DNA of 31,069 nucleotides from a virus, in the IMG/VR virus record IMGVR_UViG_3300047325_000188, positions 1 to 31,069 of that record. One strand, written 5' to 3'. The position numbers and the translations under genes are program-made. The notes beneath the pieces are model-generated. The model was not told where the DNA came from and did not search any database. It saw nothing but the letters and a program-made list of their open reading frames with translations. This document shows, one piece after another, positions 20,371 through 26,168 of this stretch. Each line of letters opens with the position of its first letter. Position 1 is the first letter of the stretch.

Positions 20371-20604
20371 CTAGTCCCCAAGGGGACCGCCGACGATGGC
20401 ACCGCTGCTATCGTAGAGCATGCTCGAACCGCCCCGCTTGCGGAGCGCCGCGCGGGCCTCCTTCTCATCCTCGAAGTGCGCGACAAGATAGAGGTTCTCG
20501 GGAGGCTCTTCGTAGTCGTCGATGTCGACGAGATTCCATCCGTCCTTGGGCGTCAGTTCTTTGCGGCGCGCGAGCGCAGCCGAAAGCGAGTCGGCGAAGC
20601 TCAT
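20371..20604 (-). CDS. Small acidic protein coupled to the RelA/SpoT gene
   Basis: 77 residues from ATG 20604, whose ATGA overlaps the stop of the alarmone-synthetase-like gene. Composition is Asp/Glu-rich in the centre (NLVDIDDYEEPPENLYLVAHFEDEKEARAAL), then KRGGSSMLYDSSGAIVGGPLGD. Not recognised. Because small-alarmone-synthetase toxins often have a small neighbouring antitoxin with overlapping reading frames, this is one candidate antitoxin; the zinc protein on the other side is another. This is an inference from context only. Confidence 0.55.
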   Translation of the reverse strand: MSFADSLSAALARRKELTPKDGWNLVDIDDYEEPPENLYLVAHFEDEKEARAALRKRGGSSMLYDSSGAIVGGPLGD

Positions 20605-21317
20605 AGGCAACCGACCGTATCGCGGACGACCGGGGTGCAGGGAGGCGGCGCGAAGTGGCCTTCCTTCTTCGCGTCCATCGCGTAGTAGTAGTCGCTCATT
20701 TTTTTGGCATAATCGACGATTTCGGGCATGTGCGCGCGGATGGCCTCTGCGTTCGGGTGCAGGTCCTTGTAAATGGTATTATGCGCCCAATCGGCGAGCT
20801 TCGTTTGGTTCGCCGTGCGCAACTGGATTTCGGCCACCCGGCCTTTCATCTCTACGTTGATATGATACCCACGATAGTAGTCGCCTAACGGCTTTTCGAG
20901 CAAATCTTTCTCGCGGACGAAATGGAAGTTCGCCTTGATTTTGGCGACGGCCGCCGGGAAGTCTCTGACCGAATCGAATTGAACGCGCATTCCGATAATG
21001 TCATAGAGTTCGGCCGGACCTTTGCCTTCCGCCATACATTTGCGGTTCATCGACGTCACATCTTTGACGCGGCCCTTTACGACGGCACCGGGAAACAGCT
21101 TCTTGAGCCGGGTCAGCGCGCGATTCATCGGCTCCTTCGCCTTCTCGTGCGCGACCTCGCACGCCGTACGGAGCTTCGTGCTCTCGGCGGATTCGGCAGC
21201 CGGGGTCGCGGGAACGTCGATGACCGCTCCGGCGGAGCCGCCGGTCGTCCACTTTCCGCCTTGGTCCCGCGGCTCGCTCGGGTTGAAGTCCTTGATGAGC
21301 CTAGCGAGCTTCGTCAT
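20601..21317 (-). CDS. RelA/SpoT alarmone-synthetase-like protein (toxSAS-type)
   Basis: 238 residues from ATG 21317 (ATGA overlap with the zinc-protein gene). The synthetase core is complete by eye. VKGRVKDVTSMNRKC carries R83, K85 and S89. YDIIGMRVQFDS carries D106 and the GxR. GDYYRGYHINVE is the G-x-YRGYH nucleotide loop (R149, H152). VAEIQLRTANQTKLADWAH has E163 as the second acidic catalytic residue and W-A-H. There is no HD hydrolase domain. The N terminus contains NPSEPRDQGGKW (residues 12-23), the motif shared with the neighbouring proteins. Known family: synthetases transfer pyrophosphate to GDP/GTP, and short forms act as toxins. Inference: an effector expressed with, and possibly packaged in, the virion. 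Confidence 0.85.
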   Translation of the reverse strand: MTKLARLIKDFNPSEPRDQGGKWTTGGSAGAVIDVPATPAAESAESTKLRTACEVAHEKAKEPMNRALTRLKKLFPGAVVKGRVKDVTSMNRKCMAEGKGPAELYDIIGMRVQFDSVRDFPAAVAKIKANFHFVREKDLLEKPLGDYYRGYHINVEMKGRVAEIQLRTANQTKLADWAHNTIYKDLHPNAEAIRAHMPEIVDYAKKMSDYYYAMDAKKEGHFAPPPCTPVVRDTVGCL

Positions 21318-21604
21318 CCCTCTTTGTGGGTGAACCGCGTGTAGTCGTCGTTGGGGTGGTCGTCACAATGGAACGACATCCCGAAGTTGCCGTGGTCCTT
21401 GAAGTGGGTCGCCTTGTTTTTGCACTTCCCGCCCGAAGCCGTCTTGCCGCCGCAGGGGACCGGGTCGCCCGGCTCGCCCTTGCCGCGCGTCGGACCCGGG
21501 CTCGGGGAGAACCGGCCATCCTGGTCGCGCGTGTAATCGCGCTCAGGAACCTTGCGCGGGACGTGCGAGCCGTAGGTCTTCGCGACGGCGCCGAGCTTAG
21601 GCAT
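21314..21604 (-). CDS. Small zinc-binding protein with PRDxxGRF-like motif
   Basis: 96 residues from ATG 21604, overlapping the end of the kinase gene by 8 bases. Residues 22-32 (RDYTRDQDGRF) match the RDxxGRF motif of the neighbours. The second half carries C51, C61, H67, H71, H79, C80 and H83 (CGGKTASGGKCKNKATHF, HGNFGMSFHCDDHP), enough for a zinc site. Translation is coupled to the RelA/SpoT-like gene via ATGA. No family recognised. It could be an antitoxin, a cargo partner, or a small DNA-binding protein; the sequence only shows a probable metal-binding fold. Confidence 0.65.
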   Translation of the reverse strand: MPKLGAVAKTYGSHVPRKVPERDYTRDQDGRFSPSPGPTRGKGEPGDPVPCGGKTASGGKCKNKATHFKDHGNFGMSFHCDDHPNDDYTRFTHKEG

Positions 21605-23420
21605 TTCCGAACGCCTCCCGATGGACGCCCGGGTTTGTTTTCGTTCCTGGCGTTCGATAATCGCTCTTCGAGCGGCCGGGGTTTTCCCAACTTTCCATTG
21701 GGTCCTTGGGCTCGCGCGCTCGCGTGGCGTCGGCCGCCTTCTTCGCGTTCTTCGGCGCGACGTAGCCCTTGGGAGCGCCCTTCTCGGTGAAGCCCAGGCG
21801 GCGTGCATGGGCAAGGTCCTCGTCCGTGTAGGTCGGCGTGTGCTTGAAGTCGATGGGCAGCCCCTTGGCGTGGCCCTCCTCCGCGAATTGCTTGAGGCCG
21901 GGAAGGATGCTCGCAACCTTATCGTGCGTTCCGTTGAGCATCGGCTCGGGAACCGTGCGTTTACGGTCGGCATTCCGGTGATGAGCGACTTCGCGCGGCG
22001 CGTCGGCATGGTTGAACTCGACGTCGTAGCCGTTGTCCATCGCGTCTTGAGCCCACTTCTTATAGTTCGCCGAGCCGGTCGAGTCGTAAATGAAGCTCCC
22101 ATGATTCGGGTCGCGCAGCGCGTTCTGGAGCCGCTGCTTGACGACGTGCGACGAAATCTCGTGCGTTAGTCCGCCGCCGAAATCTTCGCCGCGACCGTCC
22201 TCGTTGCGCGGCTGGCCTTCTTTGGGATGGCCCTTTTCATACGGGTCCTTGATAACGTGGTTGGCGAAGTCGCGCGCGTCGCGGAACCCGGTCGAGCGCT
22301 GAATGTGCTCGTCGAGAGCCGCGCGCTCGTGCTCGGGGTACTGCTGCAACTCCGCCCATGAGGTCGGGCCGCTCGGGCCATACTTCCCCGCATGCTCGGG
22401 TCCGCGAGCGCCGCTCGGATGCTCGCCCTTCTCGTGGGAGTAGAGCGGATTGCGCGCCTTCTCGGCATCGCTGTCGAAGATGGGCGCGTGCTCGAAGCCG
22501 GGCTTCGGCGCGATGTATTTCTCGTGCCCAGGCGCGATGGTCTCTTCGGTGGCGGTCCCGTCACCATTATCGCGGTGATACGTGTCGCCCTCGTTGCCGG
22601 TGTAGCTCTCTTTGACCACGCCGCCCTTGCCGACTCCGCCCCCGCCAATCATAAAAATGGCCTTGCGCTTGAGCGTGCTGGAGACCGGCAGGAAGCCCTG
22701 GCGCTTGCGGTCGGCAATCGCGGAATCGCCGTCGAGCGCGCGGGTCTCGGGGTCGGTGTGCTCGCGCATGATTTTCTCACGCGGCGTTTCCGGCTTGCCC
22801 TGGGCGCCCTTGGATTCGTGTTCGTGCGTCTCGGCGAGATGCGCGGCAGCGCCGTGCGGATGAGCAAAATTGCCCTTGAATTCCTTCTTCCCGTTCGCAG
22901 CGACGGAGCGCGCCTGGTAGCTTGCTCGATTCGGTCGAGCCGCGTCTGGAATCGGCTTTATCTCGCCGACCTGGCGCTCGGAAGAATGGAGGGTGTGGCC
23001 GCCGCCTTCGCGGGGCCGAATGTCGTAGTTGCCGCCGGACTTCGTCTTAGCCGAACCGTGCCCGCTCTCGTCGATAGAGATTTTCGAGCCGCCGCTCGAC
23101 ACGAATTGACCGTTCTCCGGGGAGTGCTCGTGACCGGATTCGTCTTTGGCCTTGAGGAGGTCGCCTGCCTTGACCGTTTTGTCCGAGCGGTCTTCGCGGG
23201 CATCCATCATTTCCTGGAGCTTGCGGTAGTGACCGTTGACCTCGGCGTGCTGCTCAGGGGTCATGTTCCGGCTCCCCATCGCCGTGTGCCTGGCGACGAG
23301 GTTGTGAATCATGTCCTTGTGGGACTCGATGTCGGCCTTGGTGGGGGCGCCGGTCGACGTGAAGCGACCGTCGTCGTCACGCGGCTGGCCATCGCTCTTC
23401 AAAACGTCGCCGATTTTCAC
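21597..23420 (-). CDS. Large polyvalent protein with zeta-toxin-like kinase
   Basis: 607 residues from GTG 23420 with GGAGG upstream. N-terminal MKIGDVLKSDGQPRDDDGRF, repeated in looser form at residues ~84-106 (AGDLLK... SPENGQF), then a third QPRNEDGR at 403-410. A P-loop kinase domain lies at ~250-510: KAIFMIGGGGVGKGG (Walker A, 259-267), SSHVVKQRLQNALRDPNHGSFIYDST (conserved helix and strand), then DVEFNHADAPREVAHHRNADRKRTVPEPML, which resembles zeta toxins' R...R..GR.VPe segment. Known zeta enzymes phosphorylate UDP-sugars and block cell-wall growth. There is a long Gly/His-rich disordered part between. Inference: a head-associated kinase effector or regulator. Confidence 0.75.
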   Translation of the reverse strand: MKIGDVLKSDGQPRDDDGRFTSTGAPTKADIESHKDMIHNLVARHTAMGSRNMTPEQHAEVNGHYRKLQEMMDAREDRSDKTVKAGDLLKAKDESGHEHSPENGQFVSSGGSKISIDESGHGSAKTKSGGNYDIRPREGGGHTLHSSERQVGEIKPIPDAARPNRASYQARSVAANGKKEFKGNFAHPHGAAAHLAETHEHESKGAQGKPETPREKIMREHTDPETRALDGDSAIADRKRQGFLPVSSTLKRKAIFMIGGGGVGKGGVVKESYTGNEGDTYHRDNGDGTATEETIAPGHEKYIAPKPGFEHAPIFDSDAEKARNPLYSHEKGEHPSGARGPEHAGKYGPSGPTSWAELQQYPEHERAALDEHIQRSTGFRDARDFANHVIKDPYEKGHPKEGQPRNEDGRGEDFGGGLTHEISSHVVKQRLQNALRDPNHGSFIYDSTGSANYKKWAQDAMDNGYDVEFNHADAPREVAHHRNADRKRTVPEPMLNGTHDKVASILPGLKQFAEEGHAKGLPIDFKHTPTYTDEDLAHARRLGFTEKGAPKGYVAPKNAKKAADATRAREPKDPMESWENPGRSKSDYRTPGTKTNPGVHREAFGNA

Positions 23421-23464: not shown

Positions 23465-23998
23465 TCAGCCCCTCGACGTTCGCAGCGCTAAGCGCTCGCA
23501 GACAAAGCTATTGTCTTCCTCAACCAAGAGCGAGATGACGATGCTCTTGAGGTCGTGGAACTCGAAAGCGTCCCGCTGGACCTTTGCGTCGAGGGCCGCG
23601 GCGAAGAGGATGCGGCCGAAAATCGAGACCGGCGAGACGCCGAGCACGATTTGGGGGCTGGCCGTCGCTATCACGACGCCGCGCGGTCGCTGCGCGAGCG
23701 AAATCGAGCGCCCCTCCGCCTCCGCCCAGTCCTCTTTGGAAATCGCGCTGACTGCCTCGTAGGGCCCCATCGAGCGAATCAGGGTAAAAGGAACCGTGCT
23801 CCAGGTCTGGGCGGCCGTGACCTCGTCGGTGGCTTTGAGGTTATCGAGAACCACAAACCGCCCCTCGACCTGGTCGGCCCGAATCCCGCGGACGCGCCGG
23901 AAGCGGGAGAGATGCGTGAGCACCTCGTCGCCGAGTAAGACGAATTCGATGGGCACGAGACCCCGCTGCGTCACGACCCGGCTGCCGACCGCGACCAT
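23465..23998 (-). CDS. Orphan Hint (intein-like) protein
   Basis: 177 residues from ATG 23998, three bases after the stop of the preceding gene. Residues 2-36 (VAVGSRVVTQRGLVPIEFVL, then LGDEVLTHLSRFRRV) align with the N-terminal block of the intein in the neighbouring gpF gene (VAAGSTVSTLRGALAVEDV, then GDFALTHLGRFRRV). About 20 of 35 positions are identical. Near the end VISLLVEEDNSFVCERLAL parallels the intein's C-terminal block VYDLQVREDESFIAQGVAI. But the N-terminal Cys is replaced by the start Met, the block-B TxxH is not found, and the final HN is missing. So it is a stand-alone Hint fold with splicing residues lost. Its role is unknown. Confidence 0.7.
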   Translation of the reverse strand: MVAVGSRVVTQRGLVPIEFVLLGDEVLTHLSRFRRVRGIRADQVEGRFVVLDNLKATDEVTAAQTWSTVPFTLIRSMGPYEAVSAISKEDWAEAEGRSISLAQRPRGVVIATASPQIVLGVSPVSIFGRILFAAALDAKVQRDAFEFHDLKSIVISLLVEEDNSFVCERLALRTSRG

Positions 23999-24299: not shown

Positions 24300-26168
24300 T
24301 CATTCGACGGGCAAATAGACGCACCGGCAGTTGTGAATTGCCACGCCTTGCGCTATAAATGATTCATCTTCGCGCACCTGCAAATCATAAACCATCCCTG
24401 AATAGGTCGAGTCTTGAATAAGCGCGGAACGAAGCGATGGGAGAAGCTCAGGCCGAGTGACGAGCAAGTCAGGGCTTGGCATGCGGAGCATTTGGCTGGC
24501 AAGTCGGTCAATCAACTTCACCGTGAAACTGGTTGTAGTTGCCTGGCTATCACGCGATGGTTTCGTGAACGCGGACTCTCGCACCGCGGGCAAAGTGCGG
24601 CTGAGGATGCTAAGTGGAGCGCGATGACTCCCGAGCAGCGGCGCGCGCAGACCGACGCTGCTCATGCCGCCGTGCGAGGTCACTCGTGGAGTCGCGAGAC
24701 TCAACTGAGCCAAGCCGCCGGGCGCCAAGCTAAGCCAAAAATCTCGAACTGGGAAGCCGCAATGCTGAGCGAGTTGGAGAATTTGGGCGAGCAGCCTGTG
24801 CCCCAATTCGCCATTGACATCTTCAACGCCGACCTGGCCCTGCCCGACGCGATACTCGTCGTCGAAATGGATGGCGGCGCTTGGCATGCTGTGCCCAAGA
24901 AGCGCATGCAAGACGCGCGAAAAGATGCGGTACTCGCCGCGCTTGGCTGGGGCATCGTACGCATTCAATGCCAAAGCCGCATGATGAGCCGCCTGCCAGT
25001 CTACGCCGAGGACATCCGCGCGCTCGCCGAGGTGCGACGCGAGACGGAACCCGTCCGGCGTCAGAACGGGGTGATTGCCCGTTACCCGAAGCCCATTCAC
25101 GTGAAAGATAGAGCCCGAATGGTGCCGCGACATTACGGCATCGACGCGACGGAAGCGGCCGAGATGCGTCAGCGCGAAGTCCCCGACCCTGACGTCCTCG
25201 ACGGCAAGGGCTCCACGAAGAGTTGAGACCGTGCTTCCAGCCGCAACGCAGCGCGGATGGATGGGAATATACGGCCCCCACGCATCGACCCTCTTGCCGT
25301 AGTTCGATTGGCCGATGATGTCGCGGATTCTGAACTTTTCACCGGTGAAGAGGCGCTTGCAGTGGTCGCAAACGCGCGAGTCGTGCGCGTACGAGCCCTC
25401 GCACCATTCGAAGCCTTGGTCGAGTAGCTCCTGGAGTCTTCCGGCGGATTCTGCGCGGGCCGTCTCGGTGACCGCAATCGTGCCGAAATCGAGGTTGTAG
25501 TCCTTGGTCGTGTTGGCCATCGCTCGCGCCACTTCGCGCGGGTTCTTGCCGAGCGTGGCGGCGGCGATGAGGTGGTTGCGTAGCTCGGCTTTCATCTCTT
25601 CGAACTTCGCATCTAGTTCGTTGAAATTGTGATGTTCGAGGAACTCGATAGCGCGCCGGTCCTCCGCCGTCACCGGCCGGTGCAGCACGGCGCGGCCGAC
25701 ATTCGACGAAGGACGGTTTTCTCGACGGGCACTGGCGGCCTGGTGAGCGGCGGCGGCGTCCGTCGCGAGCATTTGGCCGATAAGGTACGCCTGCATCGGG
25801 TGCGAGGCGAGGTTCACCATCGCCTTGCGTTTCCAGTTCTCGACCGGTTCGTCGAGTTGGTAGGGGTCGAGGCCCTCCCACGTCCCGCCGGTCTTCTCGT
25901 AAATTTGGTCGACCAACTCGCGTAAATCGCGCGCCAGTTGCGGCTGGCCCTCAACCATCGCGCGGTAGACCGCGTCTTCGTGGGCGCCAATTTCCCGGAT
26001 GCCGTGGTCGCCGGGGTCGCCCGGATGCCAGTCGCGCTTTTCCAGGTCATGGCCCCAGTGGCGTTCGAGCGCGCGCGCAGCCGCGACGGCGTTCGCCCCT
26101 TTGCGGACGACCAGTTGCGCCATATCGAATCCGATTTCGAGCGCGAGCTTATCCATCGTGGTCCCCAT
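24300..26168 (-). CDS. Mu gpF-like head morphogenesis protein with intein
   Basis: 622 residues from ATG 26168. An ATG at 26156 has a better site (GGGG), and may be the true start. The host protein is residues 1-306 plus 614-622: a helical N half, then an alpha part (RGNHL..., GKNPREVARAMAN, DFGTIAVTETARAESAGRLQEL) and the zinc-like end CEGSYAHDSRVCDHCKRLF ... IHPR|CRC, the conserved C-rich segment of gpF minor head proteins. The protein acts inside or at the vertex of the procapsid. Residues 307-613 are an intein (see separate entry), placed exactly in the most conserved IHPR-CRC motif. Splicing would give 315 residues, the usual size. Confidence 0.85.
   Translation of the reverse strand: MGTTMDKLALEIGFDMAQLVVRKGANAVAAARALERHWGHDLEKRDWHPGDPGDHGIREIGAHEDAVYRAMVEGQPQLARDLRELVDQIYEKTGGTWEGLDPYQLDEPVENWKRKAMVNLASHPMQAYLIGQMLATDAAAAHQAASARRENRPSSNVGRAVLHRPVTAEDRRAIEFLEHHNFNELDAKFEEMKAELRNHLIAAATLGKNPREVARAMANTTKDYNLDFGTIAVTETARAESAGRLQELLDQGFEWCEGSYAHDSRVCDHCKRLFTGEKFRIRDIIGQSNYGKRVDAWGPYIPIHPRCVAAGSTVSTLRGALAVEDVRVGDFALTHLGRFRRVDAVMSRHHSGSIFHVNGLRVTGNHPVLTPDGFRLASHLGERADVLGVDWQAAHHAALALNAYDAPAKRGEYRIFSRVLHALLGHSMPSAAIHFDDEYRVGQGQVGVEDVNGELGHRLLAQILQLAQHCGFPVRDFWLSLAPGGLAQLSLATPRVTSHGGMSSVGLRAPLLGSHRAPLSILSRTLPAVRESAFTKPSRDSQATTTSFTVKLIDRLASQMLRMPSPDLLVTRPELLPSLRSALIQDSTYSGMVYDLQVREDESFIAQGVAIHNCRCVYLPVE
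24331..24359 (+). promoter_or_regulatory. Promoter-like site for the antisense nuclease gene
   Basis: Plus strand TTGTGA (24331-24336), exactly 17 bases, TATAAA (24354-24359; five of six match). It lies within the DNA that codes the intein's C-terminal block (SFIAQGVAIHN), 55 bases before the TTG start of the nuclease. If real, selection for the splice motif and the promoter act on the same bases. Consensus-only prediction. Confidence 0.5.
24414..25226 (+). CDS. EDxHD/Vsr-like homing endonuclease, antisense within the intein
   Basis: 270 residues from TTG 24414 on the plus strand, fully inside the intein DNA and codon-for-codon in register with it. Residues ~14-55 form a helix-turn-helix (VRAWHAEHLAGKSVNQLHRE, TGCSCLAITRWFRERG). 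Residues ~110-185 are the nuclease core: NWEAAMLSELENLG (Glu-containing helix, E114), QFAIDIFNADLALPD (D140), VVEMDGGAWH (E151, D153, H158), and RKDAVLAALGWGIVRIQ (D171), the order of the Vsr-related EDxHD family. This core spans DNA opposite intein residues ~95-279, between blocks B and F. The ~85-residue tail lies opposite blocks A and B. Inference: it drives intein homing. Local G+C is about 48% at 24481-24540. Confidence 0.85.
   Translation: MNKRGTKRWEKLRPSDEQVRAWHAEHLAGKSVNQLHRETGCSCLAITRWFRERGLSHRGQSAAEDAKWSAMTPEQRRAQTDAAHAAVRGHSWSRETQLSQAAGRQAKPKISNWEAAMLSELENLGEQPVPQFAIDIFNADLALPDAILVVEMDGGAWHAVPKKRMQDARKDAVLAALGWGIVRIQCQSRMMSRLPVYAEDIRALAEVRRETEPVRRQNGVIARYPKPIHVKDRARMVPRHYGIDATEAAEMRQREVPDPDVLDGKGSTKS

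Follow-up and report, generated by a model that had tools for sequence, protein, structure and literature searches.

When both strands of a phage gene can be read as protein over about 270 codons, is the second reading a gene of its own or merely the mirror image of the first? This question is raised by the IMG/VR virus record IMGVR_UViG_3300047325_000188, of which the whole analyzed stretch of 31,069 nt is called the window here and provides the numbering used throughout. Its minus strand encodes a MuF/gpF-like head morphogenesis protein (24300..26168; 622 codons plus stop; Phage_Mu_F 1.5e-6, PHROG 115 minor head protein 1.2e-13). Within this gene, a preliminary description of the window had seen a complete-looking intein in the motif IHPR|CRC and, on the plus strand of the same DNA, a 270-residue EDxHD/Vsr-like nuclease with a helix-turn-helix (HTH), in register with the intein codons.

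The head gene intein and the gene opposite to it

The intein was recovered at the very coordinates of the preliminary description, 24330..25250 on the minus strand, and motifs as well as profiles confirm it. It comprises residues 307-613 of the head protein (307 residues from Cys1 to Asn307, followed by Cys+1) and, according to the translation, stands between an N-extein of residues 1-306 ending in ...PIHPR (25251..26168, minus strand) and the C-extein CRCVYLPVE (24303..24329, minus strand). The insertion point lies in the HPR|CRC motif of the MuF-like protein, and HPN|C is the usual insertion site among relatives. Matches were obtained with Hint_2, Vint, Intein_splicing and TIGR01443 (intein C-terminal; 21.8 bits vs. 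a cut-off of 15.6), and a profile search hit solved inteins. The Hint N-terminal part with blocks A and B (CVAAGS ... TGNHPVLT; 25008..25250, minus strand) scored 54 bits with a HintN HMM, and the C-terminal part with blocks F and G, including the Cys+1 codon (GMVYDLQV ... AIHN; 24327..24401, minus strand), scored 39 bits with a HintC HMM and matched TIGR01443. All features of a class 1 Hint intein were found in one uninterrupted host frame, i.e., Cys1 in block A, TxxH in block B, block F, HN and Cys+1, represented here by CVAAGS, TGNHP, VYDLQV and AIHN|C. In AlphaFold2 models, the two Hint ends reached a pLDDT of mostly 85-96 and matched the structures of known inteins, and the linker between them (intein residues 91-270) showed no confident fold (pLDDT 32-69). 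The Hint domain should splice itself out of the head protein.

Downstream of the head gene, the window also encodes a free-standing Hint-like protein of 177 aa (23465-23998, minus strand), which shares 43% identity over 56 residues with the N-terminal block of the intein (4e-10), starts with Met in place of Cys1 and ends in VEEDNSFV; it is perhaps a decayed intein paralogue. Further phage genes on this strand encode a RelA/SpoT (p)ppGpp synthetase domain (20601-21317; 1.8e-17) and, adjoining it, a 607-aa protein (21597-23420) with a weak match to Zeta_toxin (1.8e-4), slightly below the Pfam cut-off.

The plus-strand gene (24414..25226; 270 aa plus stop, TTG start) lies entirely within the intein, and its codons align exactly with those of the minus strand over its whole length (phase 0). 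Its AlphaFold2 model has a mean pLDDT of 82, with values mostly >90 for residues 11-210 and low ones in the tail. The prediction of an HTH joined to an EDxHD/Vsr-type nuclease holds. Residues 16-52 (24459..24569, plus strand) form three helices in the model, and HTH families of the resolvase/transposase type match many relatives. The subsequent basic linker RGQSAAE...AAHAAVRG (residues 58-89; 24585..24680, plus strand) is nearly invariant by column across 83 family members. The EDxHD/PD-(D/E)xK core (residues 112-211; 24747..25046, plus strand) carries E114 (24753), D140 (24831) and E151 (24864); among the 83 members D140 as well as N138 are invariant and E114 and E151 are kept in at least 90%. 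The motif His, contained in GGAWH in the window, is no more than a majority residue in the family. In Pfam, the window nuclease matched REase_MTES_1575 above the gathering threshold (2.4e-10) and also DUF559; 43 of the 83 antisense nucleases scanned match the former, the window copy best of all, and single HTH families match up to 27.

The best PDB match of the model in Foldseek was I-Bth0305I (3r3p), a group I intron-encoded protein, with a TM-score of 0.79-0.80 by target length and a probability of 1.0, at an E-value of only 2e-3; Vsr appeared further down the list. Consistently, a profile of the antisense nucleases matched 3r3p, the catalytic domain of I-Bth0305I, with 3.7e-6, and 3hrl with 1.4e-7. 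The C-terminal tail (25047..25223, plus strand) lies opposite Hint blocks A and B, as the preliminary description had placed it; it is predicted to be largely disordered (pLDDT about 36-54), and of the two frames, the intein frame is under the stronger constraint here in relatives.

The same layout in other phages and genomes

A tblastn search with the window nuclease returned 111 phage records. Among the first 17 loci opened, 14 were head-gene loci with the nuclease antisense and in phase 0 within one uninterrupted gene, including Escherichia phages Snoke and fEg-Eco06, Salmonella phages LP31 and PST-H1, and phages of Vibrio, Gordonia, Haemophilus, Edwardsiella, Pseudomonas, Idiomarinaceae and Klebsiella. 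In fEg-Eco06 (L016), the intein occupies a different, upstream Cys of the Snoke-type head gene, and an antisense nuclease is present there too. The other three (L015, L017, L018) are helicase inteins of Corynebacterium phage phi673 and Vibrio phages with a distantly related EDxHD-like nuclease in sense. From IMG/VR, two scans with a nuclease alignment brought in 136 further loci, and L019 came from an earlier scan; alignments A1 and A2 proved too diverse for use as queries, and the UNVERIFIED record GE_vB_M4 (L159), whose frames are broken, was left out. Counting the window, 152 of the 155 loci from nuclease searches have the gene antisense to one Hint ORF, invariably in phase 0 (152/152), and the other three are the helicase inteins. 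The Hint ORF is broken only in L107. These 152 loci collapse to 112 at 90% identity and are not all independent.

A reciprocal search by the Hint N-terminal block gave at least 582 confirmed relatives. The best 80 of these all carried the antisense nuclease in phase 0, one of them as a weak match on a cut contig, and neither a sense nuclease nor a mini-intein occurred among these 80. The loci from this Hint search (L160-L239) partly overlap contigs of the nuclease search; with this overlap, more than 200 phage sequences examined share the layout of intein and antisense nuclease. The earlier suspicion that "empty" linkers of other Hint-containing head proteins hide the same design, for which a search of such inteins for opposite-strand nuclease ORFs had been proposed, was thereby borne out well beyond the window. 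Moreover, the layout occurs in a Gordonia genome, two other genomes, a Chloroflexota plasmid and a Streptomyces plasmid; a scan of genome contigs gave one locus, in the Gordonia genome, and of 296 genomes sampled, three had matches, the Gordonia genome included. The searches made for a close relative of the window copy found none, and a quick tree places it together with Vibrio phage 1.266.O on a long branch. The evidence on selection and mobility given below comes from family members other than this copy.

Conservation by strand and antisense start signals

Could the antisense frame be a by-product, i.e., could the linker be a conserved in-frame intein domain whose reverse reading merely mirrors this conservation? 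In-register antisense frames often open by chance in GC-rich DNA, and any conserved protein yields mirrored conservation on the other strand. The open frame in fact proves nothing here because the DNA is GC-rich and has other long in-register antisense runs, spanning 205-648 codons in other genes of the window and up to 813 codons over the exteins of related loci; with long antisense frames this common, we rejected openness as evidence. What goes beyond chance are the domain matches, the confident fold, the conservation and the constant phase-0 layout. Ten antisense control ORFs, all longer than the nuclease, gave no Pfam match at 1e-3, whereas matches to nuclease and HTH families and a confident fold resembling I-Bth0305I were obtained for the antisense protein. 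The linker, by comparison, matched no Pfam domain in 82 members and folds poorly, and the idea of a folded in-frame domain was rejected on these grounds; this agrees with the initial view of the linker as the reverse reading of the nuclease.

The two frames also differ in how well they are kept. Over the core, nuclease identity exceeded linker identity in 22 of 22 independent pairs, with 1016, 593 and 1506 differences at nuclease codon positions 1, 2 and 3 over 4531 codons; the alignment of the pairs followed the nuclease frame, a choice that may favor this frame if the pairs are diverged and hardly does so at >85% identity. The preliminary description had named as its refutation a conserved linker frame over a nuclease core that is not conserved, and the outcome was the opposite. 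For the tail, which faces Hint blocks A and B, 239, 60 and 175 differences fell on nuclease positions 1, 2 and 3, and conservation is usually higher in the Hint frame. By inspection of the alignments, the catalytic stretch YNxDFA...VAVEV corresponds in reverse register to the sense motif DFHGD...VEIV, and the tail motif YRVIRG to Hint block B, TPNHPxLT.

A natural control is offered by Acinetobacter phage P1068, in which a family member is a free-standing gene (L245:3001-3894) just past an intein-less head gene and convergent with it; IME285 and BUCT629 carry the same nuclease with 100% identical protein. This gene has 12 TTA/CTA/TCA codons in 298 and its opposite frames are full of stops, which speaks against a family that exists only as a mirror image. 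These three codons are absent from 35,678 codons of the antisense nucleases, where about 666 would be expected in 127 loci; since the searches looked for matches in open frames, part of this absence is a product of the method. More telling is that the matches span nearly the full length in both frames, except in L107, L149 and L150. The codon-position G+C of the window core (GC1/GC3 0.69/0.68 vs. 0.61-0.68/0.79-0.87 in ordinary genes) is only suggestive. Taking both sides together, we give the by-product reading next to no probability. In a quick tree, the free-standing nuclease nests inside the antisense family beside Haemophilus Aaphi23 (SH-aLRT 84, larger clade 99), and this position suggests a secondary escape from the intein.

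How might the antisense gene be expressed? About two thirds of 103 loci have an antisense ATG or GTG across from the His of the HVYNL motif in block F, in most cases accompanied by a GAGG-type Shine-Dalgarno sequence opposite Asn-Leu of the same block. The His opposite ATG is encoded by CAT in 63 of 70 cases vs. 197 of 526 in exteins (Fisher 1.6e-17) and the Leu opposite the Shine-Dalgarno sequence by CTC in 65 of 86 cases vs. 26% (7e-22); codon choice in block F is biased towards keeping the antisense start and Shine-Dalgarno sequence. In both Edwardsiella MSW-3 and Klebsiella RCIP0061, the nuclease is immediately preceded by genes on its own strand. Simple scans found no sigma-70-like promoter for the antisense gene in the window and no suitable one in Snoke. 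The nuclease would be expressed from the antisense strand.

The window itself is an exception. At the site of the relatives' conserved ATG (24393..24395, plus strand) it reads CAT, the intein having Met in place of His, and an in-frame TGA follows at 24399; in place of the strong Shine-Dalgarno sequence, a weak AGG (24404-24406, plus strand) precedes the TTG at 24414 by 7 nt. The loss of the ATG, the stop right after it, the weak start and the lack of close relatives in our searches could mean that the window nuclease is a decaying relic of an otherwise active family, and that decay occurs is shown by the identical contigs L149 and L150, in which the nuclease frame stops early at a TGA and the intein frame is open. 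This truncation is as expected from homing endonuclease decay and shows the nuclease to be dispensable at times. In the window, however, the remaining frame is intact, the catalytic residues are kept and the MTES_1575 match is the strongest among the 83 members scanned, and we consider a relic possible yet rather unlikely.

Mobility, proposed explanation and known systems

Distribution and divergence of the element point to mobility. With the Snoke head gene as the query, blastn gave 497 phage records, 70 of which cover at least 80% of its length; among the matches listed, most others align to the two exteins only, joined without the 816-bp element (272 codons). Among coliphages and Salmonella phages, this element is either present or cleanly absent; the empty allele in Kagunavirus fFiEco03 measures 1044 bp, exactly the length of the exteins. 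The Snoke paper likewise reports, in its intein passages, that the intein is present in LSPA1 and absent in K1ind2 (PMC6776784). Between Snoke and LP31, the inteins are 87-98% identical per 60-bp bin and the exteins 58-88%; the core differs at nuclease position 3 in 25 of 180 codons vs. 135 of 262 at extein position 3, a contrast that likely exceeds what dual-coding constraint alone would give. Kagunavirus and Jerseyvirus relatives hence display the marks of a mobile element, i.e., precise presence or absence at one site and an element more alike than its flanks.

An alternative option could be that both frames are real and the nuclease serves another use of the phage, e.g., cutting competitor or host DNA, with its place in the intein owed to compactness. 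The best Pfam match to the broad REase_MTES_1575/DUF559 group and the free-standing version next to an intein-less head gene would fit such a role, to which we assign a small probability in view of the tight tie to the single insertion motif HPN|C, the clean presence or absence, the near-identical intein within diverged exteins, and a layout of HTH and EDxHD domain that is found among known homing endonucleases (PMC3943268).

We consider it very probable that the locus is a mobile intein coded on both strands with an antisense homing endonuclease within, one that would splice, be expressed from the antisense strand, cleave and home. The minus strand, i.e., the strand of the late head operon, would encode the MuF head protein interrupted at HPR|CRC by a self-splicing Hint domain, whose linker would be the codon-for-codon reverse reading of a separate plus-strand gene for an HTH and EDxHD (Vsr/I-Bth0305I-like) homing endonuclease. 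This endonuclease would be made from an antisense transcript, in most relatives from a ribosome-binding site and start within the block F codons, and would cut intein-less copies of the head gene during mixed infection, whereupon repair would copy the intein jointly with its antisense gene. The antisense layout may let the endonuclease be made apart in time from the late structural protein, which is a guess. With somewhat less assurance, we further hold it likely that a major phage intein family obligately keeps its homing endonuclease antisense in full register, which would make it a widespread extant case of complementary-strand coding with the ribosome-binding site and start of the nuclease inside a conserved intein motif, and with separate timing of nuclease and capsid as the selective reason.

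Tailed phages commonly carry the element, among them sequenced coliphages and Salmonella phages in which it is annotated merely as intein or head protein. It accounts for "empty" intein linkers, calls for caution in gene calling and suggests a route by which a late structural gene could carry an independently made homing endonuclease. It moreover offers a natural system for studying how dual coding is kept up, in which two protein families are coded in register on the two strands and a free-standing homologue can serve as control.

The annotated inteins of coliphage Snoke and Salmonella phage LSPA1 belong to the family of the window element (PMC6776784); neither the intein passages of that paper nor the feature table of the record mention the antisense nuclease of Snoke. 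A full-text literature search, covering mostly non-subscription papers, likewise found no antisense endonuclease gene in an intein. Inteins with an in-frame endonuclease domain, e.g., PI-PfuI and PI-SceI, share with the window element the Hint domain, the nuclease between its N- and C-terminal parts and the insertion in a conserved motif, and the helicase inteins of phi673 and Vibrio phage 104E43.1, with their EDxHD-like nuclease in sense, belong to this kind. In the window family, by contrast, a gene of its own on the other strand encodes the nuclease and the linker is only the reverse reading of that gene, a design found family-wide in MuF-type head genes. I-Bth0305I, the EDxHD homing endonucleases and Vsr share the catalytic fold and acidic residues with the window nuclease, whose N-terminal HTH arrangement differs from that of I-Bth0305I.

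The ShiLan insertion, a same-strand, out-of-frame HNH gene without a splicing domain (PMC11855218), is alike in its hidden endonuclease over a stop-free in-frame insertion, its poor fold in the host frame and its mobile distribution, whereas the window element has an EDxHD nuclease on the opposite strand, in register, and a Hint domain that makes it a true intein. An endonuclease gene antisense to a splicing element is known from nuclear group I introns such as Didymium Dsq.L2066, where the host element is RNA and the gene, placed in a peripheral loop, overlaps no other protein frame that must stay free of stops (PMC9548176). In the window, both strands appear to code for protein in register over about 270 codons, and the splicing element reads as a protein intein with one open frame through it. 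The element would be a new architecture within a known kind, the mobile inteins with homing endonucleases.
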